NCBI GenBank assembly: GCA_023300065.1
Contig: JALZWJ010000194.1
Span: forward strand, 1 to 6,998
Reading direction: 5' to 3'
DNA: 6,998 nucleotides
Source: Akkermansiaceae bacterium
GTDB lineage: Bacteria; Verrucomicrobiota; Verrucomicrobiia; Verrucomicrobiales; Akkermansiaceae
Shown here: positions 1 through 6,998 of the stretch, in pieces
How positions within the stretch are numbered: the stretch's first letter is position 1
Layout: each line of letters starts with the position of its first letter
Made by a program: the position numbers and the translations under genes
Notes under the pieces: generated by a model
Told to the model about the DNA's origin: nothing
Seen by the model: the letters and a program-made list of their open reading frames with translations, nothing else
The model's database searches: none

Positions 1-592
1 CATTCTCTGGTGCAGCAGCGAGTTTGGCTTCGCCACTCTTTCTGATGCACACACCACCGGCTCCTCACTGATGCCGCAGAAGAAGAACCCGGATGTCTGT
101 GAGTTGACCCGTGGAAAAACAGGTCGCCTTTACGGGAATCTCACCGCGATCCTCACTGCGGTCAAAGGGCTCCCCCTCACCTACAATCGCGACTTACAAG
201 AGGACAAAGAACCACTCTTCGACTCCATCGACACGCTCACTCTCGCACTCAAGGTAAACACCGAAATGATCGCCGCGATGGAGGTCAATGAAAAGGTCTG
301 CGAAGCCGCAGCCTCCGATCCCATGCTCCTCGCCACTGACCTCGCAGACTGGTTAGTCAAGCAGGGCGTCCCCTTCCGATCCGCACACGAGCTGGTCGGC
401 AAAGCGGTGGCGGCCTCCGTGGATTCAGGCACACCGCTCGATCAACTCGATCTCACGAAGGTCGACTCAGCCTTCACCGCTGATGCCTCCTCCGTCTTCT
501 CGCTCCAGACAGCCCTCGCGGCCCGAACCAACCCTGGTGCCCCATCGATCGAAAACGTGAGAGCTCAGATCGTCCGCTGGAAAAACGCATAG
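1..592 (+). CDS. argH: Argininosuccinate lyase, C-terminal part (5' end outside window)
   Basis: This is the 3' portion of argH, open in frame from base 2, with about 196 residues visible before a TAG stop. Argininosuccinate lyase splits argininosuccinate into arginine and fumarate in the cytoplasm, the last step of arginine synthesis. The superfamily signature GSSLMPQKKNPD is present at bases 59-94. It is the mobile loop whose serine is considered the catalytic acid in the fumarase/aspartase superfamily. The helical core segment follows (GLPLTYNRDLQEDKEPLFDS, starting near base 166), then the small C-terminal domain with LATDLADWLVKQGVPFR near bases 328-378. An internal ATG at base 71 lies inside the signature motif and cannot be the true start. 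The gene converges on uvrA with only 23 bases between stop codons, and I see no clear hairpin terminator in that gap. Family assignment is firm; the N-terminal half is not visible. Confidence 0.96.
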   Translation, partial: ILWCSSEFGFATLSDAHTTGSSLMPQKKNPDVCELTRGKTGRLYGNLTAILTAVKGLPLTYNRDLQEDKEPLFDSIDTLTLALKVNTEMIAAMEVNEKVCEAAASDPMLLATDLADWLVKQGVPFRSAHELVGKAVAASVDSGTPLDQLDLTKVDSAFTADASSVFSLQTALAARTNPGAPSIENVRAQIVRWKNA

Positions 593-615
593 CGAAAGCC
601 TAACTAAGGTCGAAA

Positions 616-3444
616 TCACATTTCTCGCAAGGCACGTCCCGTCGCCGATTTCTCGACCTCCATCACCTCCGCTGGGGTTCCCGTCGCGACGACATACCCA
701 CCTTCAGCCCCACCGGTGGGGCCGAGGTCGATGAGGTGGTCACACACTGCGATGACATCGAGATTATGTTCCACCACCACTAAACTGTGCCCGGCATCGC
801 GAAGCCGAGAGAGCACTTGTAAGAGAACTTGGACATCCTGATAATGCAGGCCCGTCGTCGGTTCATCCAAAAGATAAAGGGTGTGGCCTATAGTTGATTT
901 GGAGAGCTCGCACGCCAGCTTCACCCGCTGGGCCTCACCACCAGATAGCGTATTAGCCGCTTGCCCGAGCTTCACGTAACCTAGGCCCACATCAAAGAGG
1001 GCATTCATAATCGCGTTTAACTTCGGCACTGCTCCAAAAAAATCGCGAGCTTCTTCGATCGTCATCTCCAGAATATCCGCCACGTTTTTCCCCCGATAAC
1101 GGATGTCGAGAGTCTCGCGATTATAGCGATTTCCTCGGCAAGCTTCGCACTCGATCCAGACATCAGGCAGGAAGTGCATATCGATCCGCAGCGCACCTCC
1201 ACCTTGGCATTTTTCACAACGTCCGCCCTTCACATTAAAACTAAAGCGCCCTGTTTTATATCCCCGCTGCCGAGAGAGCGGGAGTTTTGAAAAGAGCTCC
1301 CGAACGAGATCAAAGGCCCCGGTATAAGTCGCGGGGTTTGAACGCGGACTTTTCCCAAGTGGGCTCTGGTCCACCACCACGACTTTTTCGAGAAACTCTA
1401 GGCCCTCAATCTTATCATGCTTGCCCGGCTCATCCTTCGCCCGGTGAAAGGTCCGTGCCAGTGAGCGGCGGAGGATCTTATCCACCAGAGTCGATTTACC
1501 ACTACCACTCGGCCCCGTCACTCCCACTAACTGCCCTAGCGGGATTGTCACATCCTCGCCTTTGAGATTATTCGCGGCAGGCCCCACAATCGTGAGGGCG
1601 CGCGAGGACTTACGTTTGTGCGCTGATATCACCTGAGCCTCCCGCCGTAGCCACCTCCCCGTCGGAGTGTCCAGCTTTGCGACCTCCGCCGGAGTTCCTT
1701 GGCCGATCAATTCACCACCATGAAGTCCGGCCGCCGGACCGATCTCGATGACCTGGTCCGCCGCCCGCACCATCGCTTCATCGTGCTCCACCACCACCAC
1801 CGTATTTCCGGAATCCCGCAGACGGATGAGGGCCCCGATGAGGCGGTCGTTATCGAGCGGATGCAGCCCGATGCTAGGTTCATCCAAGACATAAAGAACC
1901 CCCGCTAATCCCGACCCCAACTGGGTGGCAAGGCGGACACGCTGGAACTCACCGCCAGAAAGAGTCCCGCTAGCCCTGTCCAAACTAAGATAACCTAGAC
2001 CGACTTCGTTAAGGAAAGAAAGACGCTTTTGCAGCTCTGCCACCACCCCGGTCATCGCGAGCTGCTTATCCTCCGGAAGAGTGATCCCCGCGAGCCAAGT
2101 CCGGATAGACTCGATGGAACTACCACAAAATTCATGGATCCCCTTCACTCCATCTTTCGCCGTGAGAGTCACCGCAAGGTACTCTGGCTTGAGCCGTTGT
2201 CCCGCGCAGGCCTGACAACCGCGCGAGGTGATGAAGCGGCTCATACTCCGTTTTACCGAATCACTTTCGCTCTCGCGATAGTGACGTTCGACCTGCCGGC
2301 AGACACCCTCAAATTCCTTTTTCAAAGGGACCTTTGCGCCCTCTTTTTCCCACTCTACCAAAATCTTAGTCTCCCCCATTCCGTAGAAGAGAGCCTCTTG
2401 AAATTCCCTGCTCAATGAATCAAAACGCTCATCCACACTCACCCCGCAGTGCGTGGCGAGGGCCTCGATATGTAACTGGTTCCACCCTTTCTTTTTGGTC
2501 GAGCCCCTCGCCCAAACTGCGACCGCTCCCTCAGCGAGGGACTTGCTCTGATCCGGCACCGCGAGGAAGGGATCACAAAAAGCCTCCGTGCCTAATCCAT
2601 GACACGCTTCACACGCGCCGAGGTGGGAATTGAAAGAAAAATGCCGTGGCGTAAGCGAGGGCAGCTCGAACCCAGTTTCAGTATTTCGGAAACTCGTCGC
2701 AAACGCCATCTCTTCCCAGCTTGCATCTCCCTTCTGCTGAGCCAAGGCTCTGACCTCCATTCCACAGATGCGGAGGGCGATTTCCACACTGTCCGCCAGT
2801 CGCGATTCCAGCCCCTCTTTCACCACTAGGCGGTCCACGACAATCTCGATCGCCCCATTCTCCGGCCAATGCTCCTCCGCTTCCTCCAGCTCGAGAATCT
2901 CTCCGTCAATCCTCACCCTCACAAACCCCTGCCGCTGTAAATCCGCAATCATCCCCTTCGCGTCCCCCTCCGATGTGAGCGGAGCTAGTAAAATCAACCG
3001 TGTCCCAGCGACCCGTCCACACAAGCTGGTGACAATATCTGTCGTCGTCATCCGCTCTAACCGATCCCCCGTCACTGGGTCATGCGGCACCCCTGCCGCC
3101 GCGTAGAGGATTCTTAAAAAATCATGAATCTCGGTCACCGTTGCAATCGTGGAGCGGGGGTTCCCCGAACCCGATTTCTGCTCAATCGCGATCGCGGGGC
3201 TGAGGCCCTCGATCGAGTCCACCTCCGGCTTCTCCAACTGATCCAGAAACTGCCGCGCATAAACTGAAAGTGACTCCACGTAGCGCCGCTGCCCCTCCGC
3301 ATAGAGAGTATGAAAGGCGAGGCTCGACTTCCCACTCCCACTTACCCCCGTGACCACAATCAATTTTCCACGAGGTAAATCTACATCCACCCCTTTGAGG
3401 TTATGCTGCCGCGCTCCACGAATCTTAATCACGCTCCAATTCAT
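616..3444 (-). CDS. uvrA: UvrABC excinuclease subunit A (DNA damage-recognition ATPase)
   Basis: UvrA is the damage-sensing ATPase of nucleotide excision repair; as a dimer it loads UvrB onto lesions. From the chosen ATG it has 942 residues, close to E. coli UvrA (940). In order it shows: Walker A GVSGSGKSS (33-41); the UvrB-binding/insertion region; Cys pairs CEAC (278-281) and CQAC (410-413); ABC signature LSGGE (495-499) with Walker B LYVLDEPSIGLH (517-528); second Walker A GPSGSGKST (644-652); C-terminal zinc finger CEKC-X19-CEAC (743-769); second LSGGE (833-837) with Walker B LYLLDEPTTGLH (856-867). The CPxCG pair found near residue 253 in E. coli is absent (TSFR here, 250-253). The frame stays open upstream to an ATG at 3519, but that lies in the loop of a terminator hairpin. 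ATG 3444 aligns with family N-termini, yet AAAGGAG directly abuts it with no spacer. A TTG at 3468, preceded by AAGGAG with a 7-nt spacer, is a credible alternative adding 8 residues. The stop is TGA. No LexA-type box was recognised upstream. Confidence 0.97.
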   Translation of the reverse strand: MNWSVIKIRGARQHNLKGVDVDLPRGKLIVVTGVSGSGKSSLAFHTLYAEGQRRYVESLSVYARQFLDQLEKPEVDSIEGLSPAIAIEQKSGSGNPRSTIATVTEIHDFLRILYAAAGVPHDPVTGDRLERMTTTDIVTSLCGRVAGTRLILLAPLTSEGDAKGMIADLQRQGFVRVRIDGEILELEEAEEHWPENGAIEIVVDRLVVKEGLESRLADSVEIALRICGMEVRALAQQKGDASWEEMAFATSFRNTETGFELPSLTPRHFSFNSHLGACEACHGLGTEAFCDPFLAVPDQSKSLAEGAVAVWARGSTKKKGWNQLHIEALATHCGVSVDERFDSLSREFQEALFYGMGETKILVEWEKEGAKVPLKKEFEGVCRQVERHYRESESDSVKRSMSRFITSRGCQACAGQRLKPEYLAVTLTAKDGVKGIHEFCGSSIESIRTWLAGITLPEDKQLAMTGVVAELQKRLSFLNEVGLGYLSLDRASGTLSGGEFQRVRLATQLGSGLAGVLYVLDEPSIGLHPLDNDRLIGALIRLRDSGNTVVVVEHDEAMVRAADQVIEIGPAAGLHGGELIGQGTPAEVAKLDTPTGRWLRREAQVISAHKRKSSRALTIVGPAANNLKGEDVTIPLGQLVGVTGPSGSGKSTLVDKILRRSLARTFHRAKDEPGKHDKIEGLEFLEKVVVVDQSPLGKSPRSNPATYTGAFDLVRELFSKLPLSRQRGYKTGRFSFNVKGGRCEKCQGGGALRIDMHFLPDVWIECEACRGNRYNRETLDIRYRGKNVADILEMTIEEARDFFGAVPKLNAIMNALFDVGLGYVKLGQAANTLSGGEAQRVKLACELSKSTIGHTLYLLDEPTTGLHYQDVQVLLQVLSRLRDAGHSLVVVEHNLDVIAVCDHLIDLGPTGGAEGGYVVATGTPAEVMEVEKSATGRALREM

Positions 3445-3475
3445 CTCCTTTCCACCGCAGGGAGTCAACTTCCGG

Positions 3476-3481
3476 CTCCTT
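3476..3481 (-). promoter_or_regulatory. Possible ribosome binding site for a TTG start of uvrA
   Basis: On the minus strand AAGGAG stands 7 nt before an in-frame TTG (3468-3466), which is ideal spacing. The homology-preferred ATG at 3444 has AAAGGAG immediately adjacent, which is too close to work well, and otherwise only GGTGG 7 nt upstream. This site could therefore decide the start and would give UvrA an 8-residue N-terminal extension (LTPCGGKE, initiating as Met). Sequence spacing is seen directly; its use is inferred. Confidence 0.4.
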
Positions 3482-3500
3482 GAGCTTTCGATCAATTCAC

Positions 3501-3533
3501 AAAAAAAAGCCCGGCGCACTGGCCGGGCTTTTT
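3501..3533 (-). terminator. Rho-independent terminator (strong leftward, possibly bidirectional)
   Basis: A perfect 7-bp GC-rich stem (GCCCGGC/GCCGGGC, 3509-3515 with 3522-3528) encloses a 6-nt loop. On the minus strand it is followed by eight consecutive T (3508-3501) and preceded by five A, a classic intrinsic terminator 26 bases past the stop of the thioredoxin-fold gene. On the plus strand the hairpin is followed by five T, so it may also stop rightward transcription. Its presence between the two leftward genes suggests uvrA is not simply the tail of that gene's transcript, although partial read-through is possible. It also overlaps the extended uvrA reading frame, arguing against the ATG at 3519. 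Confidence 0.9.
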
Positions 3534-3558
3534 GAAAGAATATTGAGTGCTGAGAGAC

Positions 3559-4254
3559 TTACTCCGCAGCTTTCTCCTGAATCATTTTCTGATCTTCCTC
3601 AGAAAGCTTGGAAATCTCGTAAGGAATCTTACGGCCGTTCTTGAGGCGGAAGGTGAGCTTATCACCATCAATTTCGGTAACGGCGGCGACCAGTGGCTGG
3701 CCTTCGCTATTCGTCCAAGTCCGCTGCCTAAAGAGGTCTCCCCCTTTTTTGTCATCAGCAGGCTCGTCTTCGTAATCCTTTAGAGCATTTTTCACCACTT
3801 TCTCAAAATCTTCGCCACCAGGACTTCCATTGAAAATCAGCTGACCTTCGACATCGAAGACGTAAGCGTGTGGAATTCCACGTGAGCTCAGCGGACCGCG
3901 AACCTGACGGGTCACGGTGAACTCTGCTTTGTGCTCGTCCAAGATACCTTTAATCTTAGCTTCCCCAGTATTTTGGCTTTCTGCGGCGATAATCGAGAGG
4001 CCCTTCTTACTCATTTTTTTGTCCATCTTCACGAGATGGGGCATTAAGCGAATACAAGGTCCTCAATTGACACCCCATACCTCGAGGACCACGACGCGGC
4101 CTTCCAGGTTTTTCATTTCCACTTCGTCGCCGAAGAGGTGTTCTCCGAGGGTCCACTCGGAAAGGTTGTGATCGGGGAGAGCCCCGTCTTGAGCCATGGC
4201 GGACGACATTGCCAATCCGAGGGCAAGGAAGCTACGCATTAATAGTAATTTCAT
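3559..4254 (-). CDS. Candidate selenoprotein: secreted thioredoxin-fold (UGPC) oxidoreductase with SHD1-like tail
   Basis: One 231-codon frame read through an in-frame TGA at codon 64. Residues 1-21 form a signal peptide (Lys/Arg start, Leu/Ala-rich core, AMA cleavage site before QDG), so the protein should be extracytoplasmic. Residues 22-63 fit the start of a TlpA/ResA-like thioredoxin domain, ending in beta-strand RVVVLEVWGVN. The motif is then [UGA]-G-P-C-I-R-L-M-P, where family members have CGPC. The domain continues to the cis-Pro loop (GIPHAYVFD, cis-Pro about 128) and helix FEKVVKNAL. After an acidic linker (about 160-173), residues 175-228 (RTWT...LSEEDQKMI) resemble SHD1-like domains of PVC bacteria. 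Cys67 is the only cysteine, so Sec64 would supply the attacking residue and Cys67 the resolving one. A SECIS-like hairpin lies downstream of the TGA. No good ribosome-binding site is visible before ATG 4254 or ATG 4239. A strong terminator follows. The main alternative is a pseudogene or base error turning TGC/TGT into TGA; substrate unknown. Confidence 0.82.
4023..4039 (-). promoter_or_regulatory. Putative bacterial SECIS hairpin
   Basis: On the minus strand, CCATCT pairs perfectly with AGATGG (6 bp) around a 5-nt loop CGTGA. The loop lies 30-34 nt after the UGA and carries a G at its second position followed by U. From memory, bacterial SECIS models expect a short stem with a small loop roughly 16-37 nt after the UGA and a G in the first two loop positions; this fits. 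A weak lower stem (UG with CA) may continue after a small internal loop. Such hairpins are recruited by SelB carrying Sec-tRNA. Its function here is inferred, not shown. Confidence 0.65.
4063..4065 (-). other. In-frame UGA, proposed selenocysteine codon (Sec64)
   Basis: The TGA replaces exactly the first Cys codon of a thioredoxin CGPC motif: upstream codons read W-G-V-N and downstream codons read G-P-C, all in one frame with no indel. The frame then stays open for 167 codons that complete the fold. UGA is the terminator of uvrA and hisS in this window, so general reassignment of UGA is not supported. Established knowledge: selenocysteine commonly replaces catalytic Cys in redox proteins as UxxC. 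Confidence 0.8.
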
Positions 4255-4261
4255 AACGCTT

Positions 4262-4293
4262 TTGATACTGTCTAATCAGAAAAATTCTTTCAA
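4262..4293 (-). promoter_or_regulatory. Weak promoter candidate for the thioredoxin-fold gene
   Basis: On the minus strand, TTGAAA (4293-4288) resembles a -35 box and TATCAA (4267-4262) a poor -10 box, but the 20-nt spacer is too long for a good sigma-70 promoter. The segment is AT-rich and lies directly upstream of the start codon. It marks a likely promoter zone rather than a confident site. Confidence 0.25.
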
Positions 4294-4350
4294 GAAAAAT
4301 GAGACTCACTGGCAAGCCCTCCTCAGAAGACCGAGTTCCAACAATCCGCC

Positions 4351-4378
4351 TCGACATCGGGTCATCCCCCCCTATTCT
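4351..4378 (+). promoter_or_regulatory. Possible sigma-70-like promoter for hisS-aspS
   Basis: TCGACA (4351-4356; 5 of 6 to TTGACA) is followed after 16 nt by TATTCT (4373-4378; 4 of 6 to TATAAT). Transcription would begin near 4385 and leave a leader of about 33 nt before hisS. The 163-bp gap between the divergent genes is the natural place for both promoters. Support is by consensus resemblance only. Confidence 0.35.
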
Positions 4379-4417
4379 CGCGCGCCCGTGAGAAATCGCG
4401 GGAACCCCTTCTCAACC

Positions 4418-5692
4418 ATGGCCAAACCAGTCTTCCAGTCACTCCCCGGCTTTCGCGACTTCCGTCCTGAAGACTGCGCCGTGCGTAACTACTTGTTCCG
4501 GAACTTCCGCGAGGTCGCCCGCCGCTATGGCTTCGTGGAGTATGAAACGCCCATTGTAGAAGGCACGGAGCTTTACCTCAAAAAATCTGGCGGCGAACTG
4601 GGAACCCAGCTTTTCCGTTTCGAAGACCAAGGCGGACGTGATGTGACCCTTCGTCCAGAAGTCACCGCTTCCCTCGGCCGTCTCCTCACCGCCTGCCAGC
4701 GTGACTATCCTAAGCCGCTGCGCTGGTTCGAAATCGGCCAATGTTTCCGTTACGAAAAACCGCAAGCCGGACGGACTCGGGAATTCTACCAATTCAACGT
4801 CGACCTCATCGGCGAGCCTAATGCTGCCGCTGATGCTGAGCTGATCGCACTCACCATCGAGTTGATGCGTGAACTGGGCTTCCAAAAAGGAGACTTCGTG
4901 ATCCGCCTTTCAGACCGCGCCTACTGGCAGAGCTTTGCTGAGGCAAAAGGCCTCTCCGAAGAACAAGCGGCCGAGCTACTCCAAATCGTCGATAAGCTCG
5001 AACGCGATAAAGAAGGAACGCTCCCTGCGAAGTTAGAGGCCCTCGGCCTCACCGTCGAAGAAGTCCAAACCGCCATCAAATCGCCAAGCGATCTGAGCGA
5101 AAACCTCAACACTGTCCTCAGCAATCTCGAGGCACGCGGCATGCGCGATGACGTCGAGGTGGACCTCTCGATCGTCCGTGGCCTCGCCTACTACACCGGC
5201 GTCGTCTTCGAGATCTTCGACGCTAAAAAGTCAATGCGCGCCGTCGCAGGAGGTGGCCGTTACGACTCACTCGTCTCCGCTCTCTCGGATGGTAAAGTGG
5301 ATCTCCCCGCCGTCGGCTTCGCGATCGGTGACGTCGTCATCCGTGACCTCATTGAGAAGACCCCACATGCCTTGGAAAAGATGCAGGCCGCCCTCAAAGC
5401 GGAGACTGCCTGTGATGTTTTTTTGGTCCTCGCCGATCCAGAGAAGCAGTCCAATGTCCTGGCCCTCGCCAGCACACTACGCACCGCGGGCATCGCCGTG
5501 TCCTATTCCCTTTCGCCTACCAAGTTCGCCAAGCAATTCAAAGCAGCCGAACAAGCCGGAGCAGCTCTAGCCCTCGTAATCGGGGCGGAATTCCCGGAGG
5601 CCTCGCTTAAAATTGTCGCAACCCGCGAAGAGGTCAAATTGACCATCGATGGCGACATCAAACAAACCCTTTCCCAATACCTGAAGAAATGA
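4418..5692 (+). CDS. hisS: Histidyl-tRNA synthetase
   Basis: This cytoplasmic class II enzyme attaches histidine to tRNA-His using ATP. The 424-residue product matches the usual HisRS size. Visible elements: N-terminal LPGFRDFRPED (9-19); motif 1 region ending near EYETPIVEGTEL (41-52); the TLRPE loop (77-81); motif 2 FEIGQCFRYEKP...REFYQFNVDL (104-130); the histidine-specific HisA motif IVRGLAYYTGVVFE (242-255), with Arg244 in the position of the catalytic arginine; GGGRYD (268-273); and a C-terminal anticodon-binding domain from about 322. Motif 3 reads GFAIGDVVIRDL (291-302) instead of GFxxGLERL, so the usual arginine is missing there, as I recall for plant organellar-type HisRS. The frame is open upstream to an ATG at 4196, but that stretch runs antisense through the thioredoxin-fold gene and shows no homology; ATG 4418 begins right at the conserved region. 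Its ribosome-binding site is weak. The TGA stop overlaps the aspS start. Confidence 0.96.
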   Translation: MAKPVFQSLPGFRDFRPEDCAVRNYLFRNFREVARRYGFVEYETPIVEGTELYLKKSGGELGTQLFRFEDQGGRDVTLRPEVTASLGRLLTACQRDYPKPLRWFEIGQCFRYEKPQAGRTREFYQFNVDLIGEPNAAADAELIALTIELMRELGFQKGDFVIRLSDRAYWQSFAEAKGLSEEQAAELLQIVDKLERDKEGTLPAKLEALGLTVEEVQTAIKSPSDLSENLNTVLSNLEARGMRDDVEVDLSIVRGLAYYTGVVFEIFDAKKSMRAVAGGGRYDSLVSALSDGKVDLPAVGFAIGDVVIRDLIEKTPHALEKMQAALKAETACDVFLVLADPEKQSNVLALASTLRTAGIAVSYSLSPTKFAKQFKAAEQAGAALALVIGAEFPEASLKIVATREEVKLTIDGDIKQTLSQYLKK

Positions 5693-6998
5693 GAACACAT
5701 CACTGCAACGAAATCCGCCCTGGAAATATCGGAGAAACTATCACTCTTATCGGCTGGGTGAATAGCGTCCGAGACCAAGGCGGCGTGATCTTTATCGACC
5801 TCCGCGATCGCGAAGGAATCACCCAGTGTGTTTTCCGAGGCGAGGTCTCAGCGGAAGCAGCTGAGCTTTCTCACAAGCTCCGCTCCGAGGACGTTGTCCA
5901 AGTGACAGGCAAAGTCGAGGAACGTCTCAAAACCGATGACGTTGACACTAAAAACGAGAAACTCGAAACCGGCGAAGTTGAAATCGTCACCTCAAAACTT
6001 ACCATCGTTAACAAGGCCGATGTCCTGCCTTTCCAACTGGACAAGGAACTCTCGAATGAAGACCTCCGCCTGAAATATCGCTACCTCGATCTCCGTCGCC
6101 CACGCCTCACCAACAACCTGCGCCAACGCCACACCATCACGAAGGCCGCGCGTGATCACCTTTCCGAGCAAGGCTTCATTGAGGTCGAGACTCCCATCCT
6201 TTCAAAAGCGACACCGGAGGGCGCGCGCGACTTCCTCGTCCCAAGCCGCATTAACCCCGGCAAATTCTACGCTCTCCCGCAAGCGCCTCAGCAATACAAG
6301 CAGATGCTTATGGTTGCGGGCGTTGAGAAATACTTTCAAGTCGCACGTTGCTTCCGTGATGAAGATCTCCGCGCTGACCGCCAGCCCGAGTTCACTCAGA
6401 TCGATATCGAGGCCTCCTTCGTCGATGAAGACGACATCATCGGACTCATTGAAGGAATGCTTTCCTCCATGTTCGAGGAAGCTCGCGGCGTAAAAGTTCC
6501 GACTCCCTTCGAGCGCCTCACTTGGAAAGACGCCATGAACCGCTACGGTTCTGATAAGCCTGAACGCCGTATTGGGATGGAAATGGTCGACCTTAGTGAA
6601 GATCTAAAAGACTGCGATTTCCGCGTCTTCTCCGGCACCGTCGCCAGTGGCGGCGTGGTCAAAGCGATCAATGCAAAAGGCTTTGCCGATATCTCAACCG
6701 GACAAATCGACAAGCTCACCAAGCTCGCCCAAGAAGCAGGAGCAAAAGGCCTAGCCTACATTCAAGCCCGCGATACCGACCGCACGACCTGGCGCTCTCC
6801 CTTCGTAAAGCGCATGACTGATGGCGAGGTCGAGGCACTCCGCGAAAAACTTAACATCGAGCCCGGTGACCTCATCCTCTTCGCGGCCGACCAGTGGGAA
6901 CCCGCTTGCGATGTTCTCGGACGAATCCGCCTCGAGGTCGCAAACCTCCAAAACCTGCTCGAAGGAAACGACGACCTCGACTTCCTCTGGGTCACCGA
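5689..6998 (+). CDS. aspS: Aspartyl-tRNA synthetase, bacterial type (3' end outside window)
   Basis: The first 436 residues of AspRS, which charges tRNA-Asp, run off the window end without a stop. Domains visible: N-terminal OB-fold anticodon-binding domain (GWVNSVRDQGGVIFIDLRDR, 22-41); the catalytic-domain start LSNEDLRLKYRYLDLRRP (121-138); motif 1 end and flipping-loop region ETPILSKATPEGARDFLVPS (167-186); motif 2 FQVARCFRDEDLRADRQPEFTQ (216-237); and the bacterial GAD insertion (about 290-410; FRVFSG, KGLAYI). The start ATG overlaps the hisS TGA as ATGA, implying translational coupling and one operon; no separate strong ribosome-binding site is seen. Residue 30 is Gln at the position where E. 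coli has Leu and Asn-tolerant (non-discriminating) enzymes often have His, so tRNA-Asn specificity cannot be read from it. Motif 3 lies beyond the window. Confidence 0.96.
   Translation, partial: MRTHHCNEIRPGNIGETITLIGWVNSVRDQGGVIFIDLRDREGITQCVFRGEVSAEAAELSHKLRSEDVVQVTGKVEERLKTDDVDTKNEKLETGEVEIVTSKLTIVNKADVLPFQLDKELSNEDLRLKYRYLDLRRPRLTNNLRQRHTITKAARDHLSEQGFIEVETPILSKATPEGARDFLVPSRINPGKFYALPQAPQQYKQMLMVAGVEKYFQVARCFRDEDLRADRQPEFTQIDIEASFVDEDDIIGLIEGMLSSMFEEARGVKVPTPFERLTWKDAMNRYGSDKPERRIGMEMVDLSEDLKDCDFRVFSGTVASGGVVKAINAKGFADISTGQIDKLTKLAQEAGAKGLAYIQARDTDRTTWRSPFVKRMTDGEVEALREKLNIEPGDLILFAADQWEPACDVLGRIRLEVANLQNLLEGNDDLDFLWVT

Follow-up and report, generated by a model that had tools for sequence, protein, structure and literature searches.

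A predicted ResA/DsbE-like selenoprotein, split in annotation at an in-frame UGA, in an Akkermansiaceae bacterium

Selenoproteins with a thioredoxin fold and selenocysteine (Sec, U) at the first position of a UxxC active-site motif are already well known. Table 1 of a 2026 inventory of 119 families (PMC13188914) includes Prx-like PF00578, Redoxin PF08534 and thiol-disulfide isomerase-like families with UxxC, and the Global Ocean Sampling paper (PMC2398784) includes Prx-like 1 and 3 with the same motif. Here we describe an additional, mostly mis-annotated member of this kind, encoded on a 6,998-nucleotide stretch of DNA from an Akkermansiaceae bacterium (contig JALZWJ010000194.1, positions 1–6,998, assembly GCA_023300065.1; this whole stretch is referred to below as the window). 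Judging from the sequence, a single frame on the minus strand, in which UGA codon 64 very likely encodes Sec, specifies a ResA/DsbE-like thiol:disulfide oxidoreductase, predicted to be exported, whose active site reads UGPC and whose C-terminal domain is SHD1-like. We read the codon as Sec because of the single TGA, its recurrence or replacement by cysteine (Cys) in relatives, the occurrence in the genome of selA, a tRNA-Sec gene and the beginning of selB, a hairpin associated with the Sec forms, and low ratios of nonsynonymous to synonymous substitution (dN/dS). The first-pass annotation of this DNA had proposed an unannotated thioredoxin-fold selenoprotein, and the homologues, selA and tRNA-Sec, the dN/dS values and the truncated database entries agree with that proposal.

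The window protein shares its domain families and the position of Sec in UxxC with the Prx-like thiol:disulfide oxidoreductase (PF00578) and Redoxin (PF08534) selenoprotein families predicted in PMC13188914, and may fall inside one of them, a comparison made solely with the domain and motif descriptions given in that inventory's table. It scores 28.7 bits against the PF00578 profile (cut-off 26) and lies 0.1 bit short of the PF08534 cut-off; the PF00578 score, thioredoxin fold, UxxC motif and conserved proline (Pro) loop place it among the AhpC-TSA/Redoxin proteins. The periplasmic thiol:disulfide oxidoreductases ResA, TlpA and DsbE (CcmG) are among its best relatives in fold and sequence, and their CxxC aligns with its UxxC. 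It differs from them in having a Sec codon in place of Cys, in its additional C-terminal SHD1-like domain and in scores far under the NCBIfam cut-offs (ResA, NF002854, 46.8 bits against a curated 170; TlpA, NF047696, 36.1 bits against a curated 230; dsbE, 21.7 bits against 123.15). The ResA-like WAxxUGC_long protein (NF041054) is likewise of the redoxin family and has a Sec-type motif in its name, but that motif is UGC rather than UxxC and the window protein reaches 21.6 bits against its cut-off of 300. The C-terminal 56 residues weakly match SHD1 proteins (PF03983) at 19.4 bits, below the cut-off of 23.7, and the domain is hence named SHD1-like only; eight of 35 homologues have SHD1 matches at E ≤ 0.001. 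None of the publications listed in literature searches deals with this gene family. The main texts of PMC13188914, PMC9312934, PMC2398784, PMC12013277, PMC5029168 and PMC1088965 nowhere contain the string "verrucomicrob-", and the one publication found to mention both SHD1 and selenoproteins is, judging by its title and abstract, unrelated.

One frame across an in-frame UGA

The gene and its parts lie in the window as follows.

3559–4254, minus strand: predicted selenoprotein gene, 231 codons plus TAA with one UGA read through (frame; 22 further UxPC homologues with the same TGA)
4063–4065, minus strand: in-frame TGA, predicted Sec64, position 1 of the UGPC redox motif (Cys here in 29 homologous rows)
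4054–4056, minus strand: Cys67 codon, likely resolving partner in the UxxC pair (sole Cys, near-invariant in homologues)
4189–4254, minus strand: likely signal peptide, residues 1–22 (sequence read by eye; predicted local distance difference test score, pLDDT, below 50 at residues 1–7 and 18–22)
3775–4170, minus strand: thioredoxin-fold domain (AhpC-TSA/Redoxin, ResA/DsbE-like), residues ~29–160 (profile, sequence, model and fold comparisons)
3571–3738, minus strand: C-terminal SHD1-like domain, residues 173–228, four strands and a helix in the model (weak profile match, structure model, homologues)

Read from 4254 to 3559, the frame is interrupted only by the TGA of codon 64 and ends with TAA as codon 232. 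Coordinates and translation agree with the first-pass description of two open reading frames (ORFs) in a common frame, 4063–4254 (63 amino acids) and 3559–4044 (161 amino acids), between which lie the TGA (4065–4063) and six sense codons. The codons 3' of the TGA, GGA CCT TGT, give the motif U-G-P-C from residue 64. Cys67 is, as had been claimed, the only cysteine of the 231-residue translation, and the predicted loop GIPHAYVFD is present; across 35 aligned homologues Cys67 is at least 90% conserved and Pro128 of the loop is invariant.

Our comparison comprises 60 homologous rows. Searching 144 related genomes with the protein contributed 50 of them (47 of 49 matches with E < 8e-29, plus three weaker TGA-bearing ones), and 260 family-level genomes the other 10. 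TGA stands at the first active-site position (U.PC) in 23 rows from 23 genomes, window included, none of which has any other TGA; 29 rows have CxxC, five lack one or both cysteines and three belong to a distant WGGUxGC group. The UxPC forms other than the window have 36%–75% identity among the matches listed in the 144-genome search. The in-frame UGA is thus aligned with the catalytic Cys of homologues, as in bacterial selenoproteins, and the first-pass suggestion of looking for relatives with C or U at residue 64 turned up both. Since the same TGA occupies the same active-site position in 22 other genomes it is more than chance, and since relatives have UGA or Cys exactly there, codon 64 is very likely a Sec codon. 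A sequencing or assembly error at this one base might be suspected in a draft assembly of 414 contigs, another contig of which ends in an apparent chimera, yet the recurrence in other genomes makes it vanishingly improbable; moreover, the database cluster P0002, identical to the second half of the window protein, also starts past the UGA (two contigs, the longest 31 kb, which may include the window's own).

It is also very unlikely that the UGA is read as some other amino acid, for instance tryptophan (Trp) through a code change or leaky readthrough. In one database relative, P0004 (JGI), the Sec site is indeed occupied by Trp, as would result from translating its contig with UGA as Trp. However, both flanking genes, uvrA (616–3519, minus strand) and hisS (plus strand), end in TGA, so that elsewhere in the window TGA serves as a normal stop, as the first-pass annotation had stated; 52 of the 60 rows have UGA or Cys within UxxC or CxxC, the remainder being the three WGGUxGC rows and five without the motif, and none has Trp; and the source genome contains a tRNA-Sec gene and selA.

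Most protein-database relatives (69 of 103) start 3' of the UGA position, 59 of them beginning with MPHL at codon 71, which bears out the expectation that standard pipelines would miss the active site. The other 34 comprise 33 with Cys and the one with Trp at the Sec site. Named sources of these relatives are Akkermansiaceae, Luteolibacter, Roseibacillus and Verrucomicrobiaceae, the others being given just as bacterium. What most of these entries assume, namely two proteins produced by a stop at the UGA and a restart at AUG codon 71, gains some support from the shared MPHL start and from codon 71 itself, which is ATG in 19 of 23 Sec forms and TTG in three. The remaining Sec form (L062) has CTA there, each product would be an incomplete thioredoxin fold in the structure model, and the 33 database relatives with Cys span the site, making the two-protein interpretation highly improbable.

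A pseudogene, in which mutation had turned a Cys codon into a genuine stop and both halves were decaying, would likewise present a frame broken by a standard stop codon, and in one UGA-form homologue (L032, genome G003) codon 93 is a further in-frame stop, TAG, attributable to decay or error. Against decay, dN/dS is 0.07–0.28 both before and after the UGA wherever computable among eight pairs of TGA-bearing relatives, 3 of 16 values being incomputable through saturation of synonymous sites and others having high dS. The same TGA is present in 23 rows across the tree, with at least five forced changes of the Sec label, and the UGA forms are confined to genomes with a selA match (22 of 22). We regard a pseudogene as extremely unlikely.

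In the tree of 57 rows (the three WGGU rows left out) the Sec label needs seven changes, at least five of them forced by starred branches, and on this unrooted tree Sec has repeatedly been exchanged, in one direction or the other, with Cys or another state in the sequences compared. Genomes G006 and G008 each carry, beside the UGA form, a second copy (L048 and L049, respectively) that has lost both active-site cysteines; these are perhaps non-redox paralogues. A scan of genome contigs with the protein gave 35 pattern matches and no confirmed relatives, although whole-genome searches found relatives.

Selenocysteine machinery and the SECIS hairpin

The source genome assembly (2.24 Mb, 414 contigs, 65% complete) contains selA (483 bits against a cut-off of 267.9) and tRNA-Sec (selC), the latter at 54.4 bits against a gathering score of 47 and called SeC with anticodon tca by ARAGORN, so that the selA and tRNA-Sec pair expected beside a selenoprotein gene is present. 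Among the 144 related genomes, 70 have a selA match, 69 of these above the cut-off. All 22 UGA-form genomes are included (hypergeometric 1.7e-8, kinship ignored), with selA in G130 as a contig-edge piece below the cut-off. By comparison, 14 genomes have a CxPC form but no UGA form, and selA occurs in 4 of these (Fisher 4e-6, kinship ignored). In a further set of 21 genomes, selA was found in G311, which has the UGA form, and in none of the 20 whose gene is free of in-frame stops, the CPPC motif itself being read in nine of those 20.

Of 23 UGA-form genomes, 19 have selB above the cut-off, the exceptions being G000, G005, G008 and G311 (58–88% complete); none of 10 selA-less CxPC genomes has it. 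Of 22 UGA-form genomes, 19 have selD above the cut-off (exceptions G000, G020 and G130), and 16 have tRNA-Sec exceeding 51 bits among the matches listed. As a separate observation, selD of the relatives contains one in-frame TGA in 59 of 68 genomes with selD above the cut-off (for example G008:C41:4018–4947) and may itself be a selenoprotein there.

Downstream of the UGA we predict a selenocysteine insertion sequence (SECIS).

4023–4039, minus strand: predicted bacterial SECIS hairpin, 6 bp, five-nucleotide loop CGUGA, loop start 29 nt past the UGA (folding and family comparison)

The bacterial SECIS model given in the Fig. 2 legend of PMC13188914 has a stem of 4–16 bp, a loop of 3–9 nt with G in position 1 or 2, a distance of 16–37 nt from the UGA and a minimum free energy of −7.5 or lower. 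The window hairpin lies within these published limits at −8.3 kcal/mol when folded over 46–50 nt, and has −7.0 when 30 nt are folded. Of the 23 Sec forms, 22 have an intact five-pair core, 19 of them in register A and three in register B, as against 2 of 29 Cys forms; the single Sec form without it (L050) has one mismatch in register B. Relative to synonymous recodings, the mean z is −1.5 for Sec forms (22 of 23) versus −0.07 for Cys forms (20 of 29; Mann-Whitney p 7e-5), leaving aside the three WGGU rows, whose z is near 0. The register A loop has GU at positions 2–3 in 19 of 19, and over 22 sequences 87.9% of cells are paired in register A, whereas slid versions reach 37.9% at best. Changes on both sides of a pair are seen for two pairs, in seven cells, and none of 500 shuffles has as many such cells; the number of such pairs, however, does not exceed that in shuffles (211 of 500), and the covariation is therefore thin. 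In three loci of the f3 clade (L053, L054 and L061) the SECIS-like hairpin lies four columns upstream, in register B, one of its pairs being either A-U or G-C.

A number of results weigh against reading codon 64 as Sec. The sel genes that the first-pass annotation proposed to seek were only partly recovered from the source genome: beside selA and selC, selB is represented by its N-terminal 120 amino acids at the end of contig C300, below the family cut-off, and a search for selD in the 65%-complete assembly was negative. selA also occurs in 11 of 22 genomes with any other form (Fisher 2e-4, kinship ignored), a group that includes altered or missing CxxC forms and two WGGU genomes; selA does not force UGA, since selA-bearing genomes also hold non-UGA forms. 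The Rfam tRNA-Sec cut-off of 47 is crossed in genomes without a selA match as well, so the tRNA-Sec score alone is weak and we did not count lower scores. One genome of the WGGUxGC group (G001, 86% complete) has selB and a TGA-bearing selD while selA was not found, nor was a tRNA-Sec above the cut-off among the matches listed. By itself the window hairpin has no exceptional stability (z −0.6, with equally good folding in 53 of 200 dinucleotide shuffles) and does not stand out from synonymous recodings (p = 0.09); as these single-sequence statistics are not significant, the hairpin argument rests on the comparison of Sec with Cys forms. In that comparison the stem registers were picked after viewing the Sec forms, and a looser search allowing any stem with the model loop and spacing finds at least five pairs in 23 of 23 Sec forms and in 9 of 29 Cys forms.

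The selB piece is 95% identical over its 120 residues to a 660-amino-acid selB frame of a genome of the same genus, and continues in frame (L009, 1846–1956) into 37 residues at the contig end that do not align to SelB, probably an assembly chimera. Matches of the source genome to the selD model (C410, C260) are far below the cut-off, and those to the selB model on C187, C96, C20 and C349 were taken for other translational GTPases on their lengths and scores; neither set was used.

Neighbourhood, further candidates and predicted function

uvrA and hisS adjoin the gene solely at its own locus (40 loci, flanks up to 1.5 kb), and the neighbourhood is therefore without a functional clue. One further element lies beyond the gene.

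3501–3528, minus strand: likely terminator, a GC-rich inverted repeat followed by a T run (sequence read by eye)

An Rfam scan of the window (E-value threshold 10) gave 14 matches, all below gathering scores and most on the terminator-like repeat at ~3457–3629.

Other candidate selenoproteins came to light in the relatives. A second ResA-like candidate in the same genus (L080–L084 in G016, G014, G002, G001 and G023, respectively), of 360–386 residues, has one TGA within FWG[DH]WUGPC. This form was seen in five of seven loci fetched; of the other two, L085 carries Cys at this site with its TGA farther downstream, and L086 is one of the WGxUPGC group. A distant redoxin group (L063, L064, L065 and L086 in G051, G001, G060 and G001, respectively) has its TGA in WG[GS]UxGC. 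A PF00578 search of the source genome gave eight matches, none with an in-frame stop; it missed the window's own gene and so says little about further selenoproteins there.

For the window protein itself we envisage that SelB, bound to the hairpin, would bring Sec-tRNA-Sec to the UGA, and that the predicted signal peptide would direct the product to the periplasm. Sec64 would act as the attacking nucleophile and Cys67 would resolve the selenenylsulfide. The most likely substrates of the putative enzyme are protein disulfides (or peroxides), which it would reduce with electrons from a putative membrane donor of the CcdA/DsbD kind.

Because most database members start past the active site, both the redox enzyme and this bacterial group's use of selenium largely escape notice. 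Whether the relatives together constitute an unrecognised periplasmic selenoprotein family of the Verrucomicrobiota with an SHD1-like tail, in which Sec and non-Sec (mostly Cys) forms have switched at least five times, the SECIS was lost in Cys forms and its register moved in one family-level clade, seems to us an evenly balanced question. If so, the family would offer a natural series of recoding gained, moved and lost within a single coding sequence. Independently of this, the enzyme occurs with either Sec or Cys, in some cases in the same genus, which allows a direct test of the benefit of Sec to an exported ResA-like enzyme.
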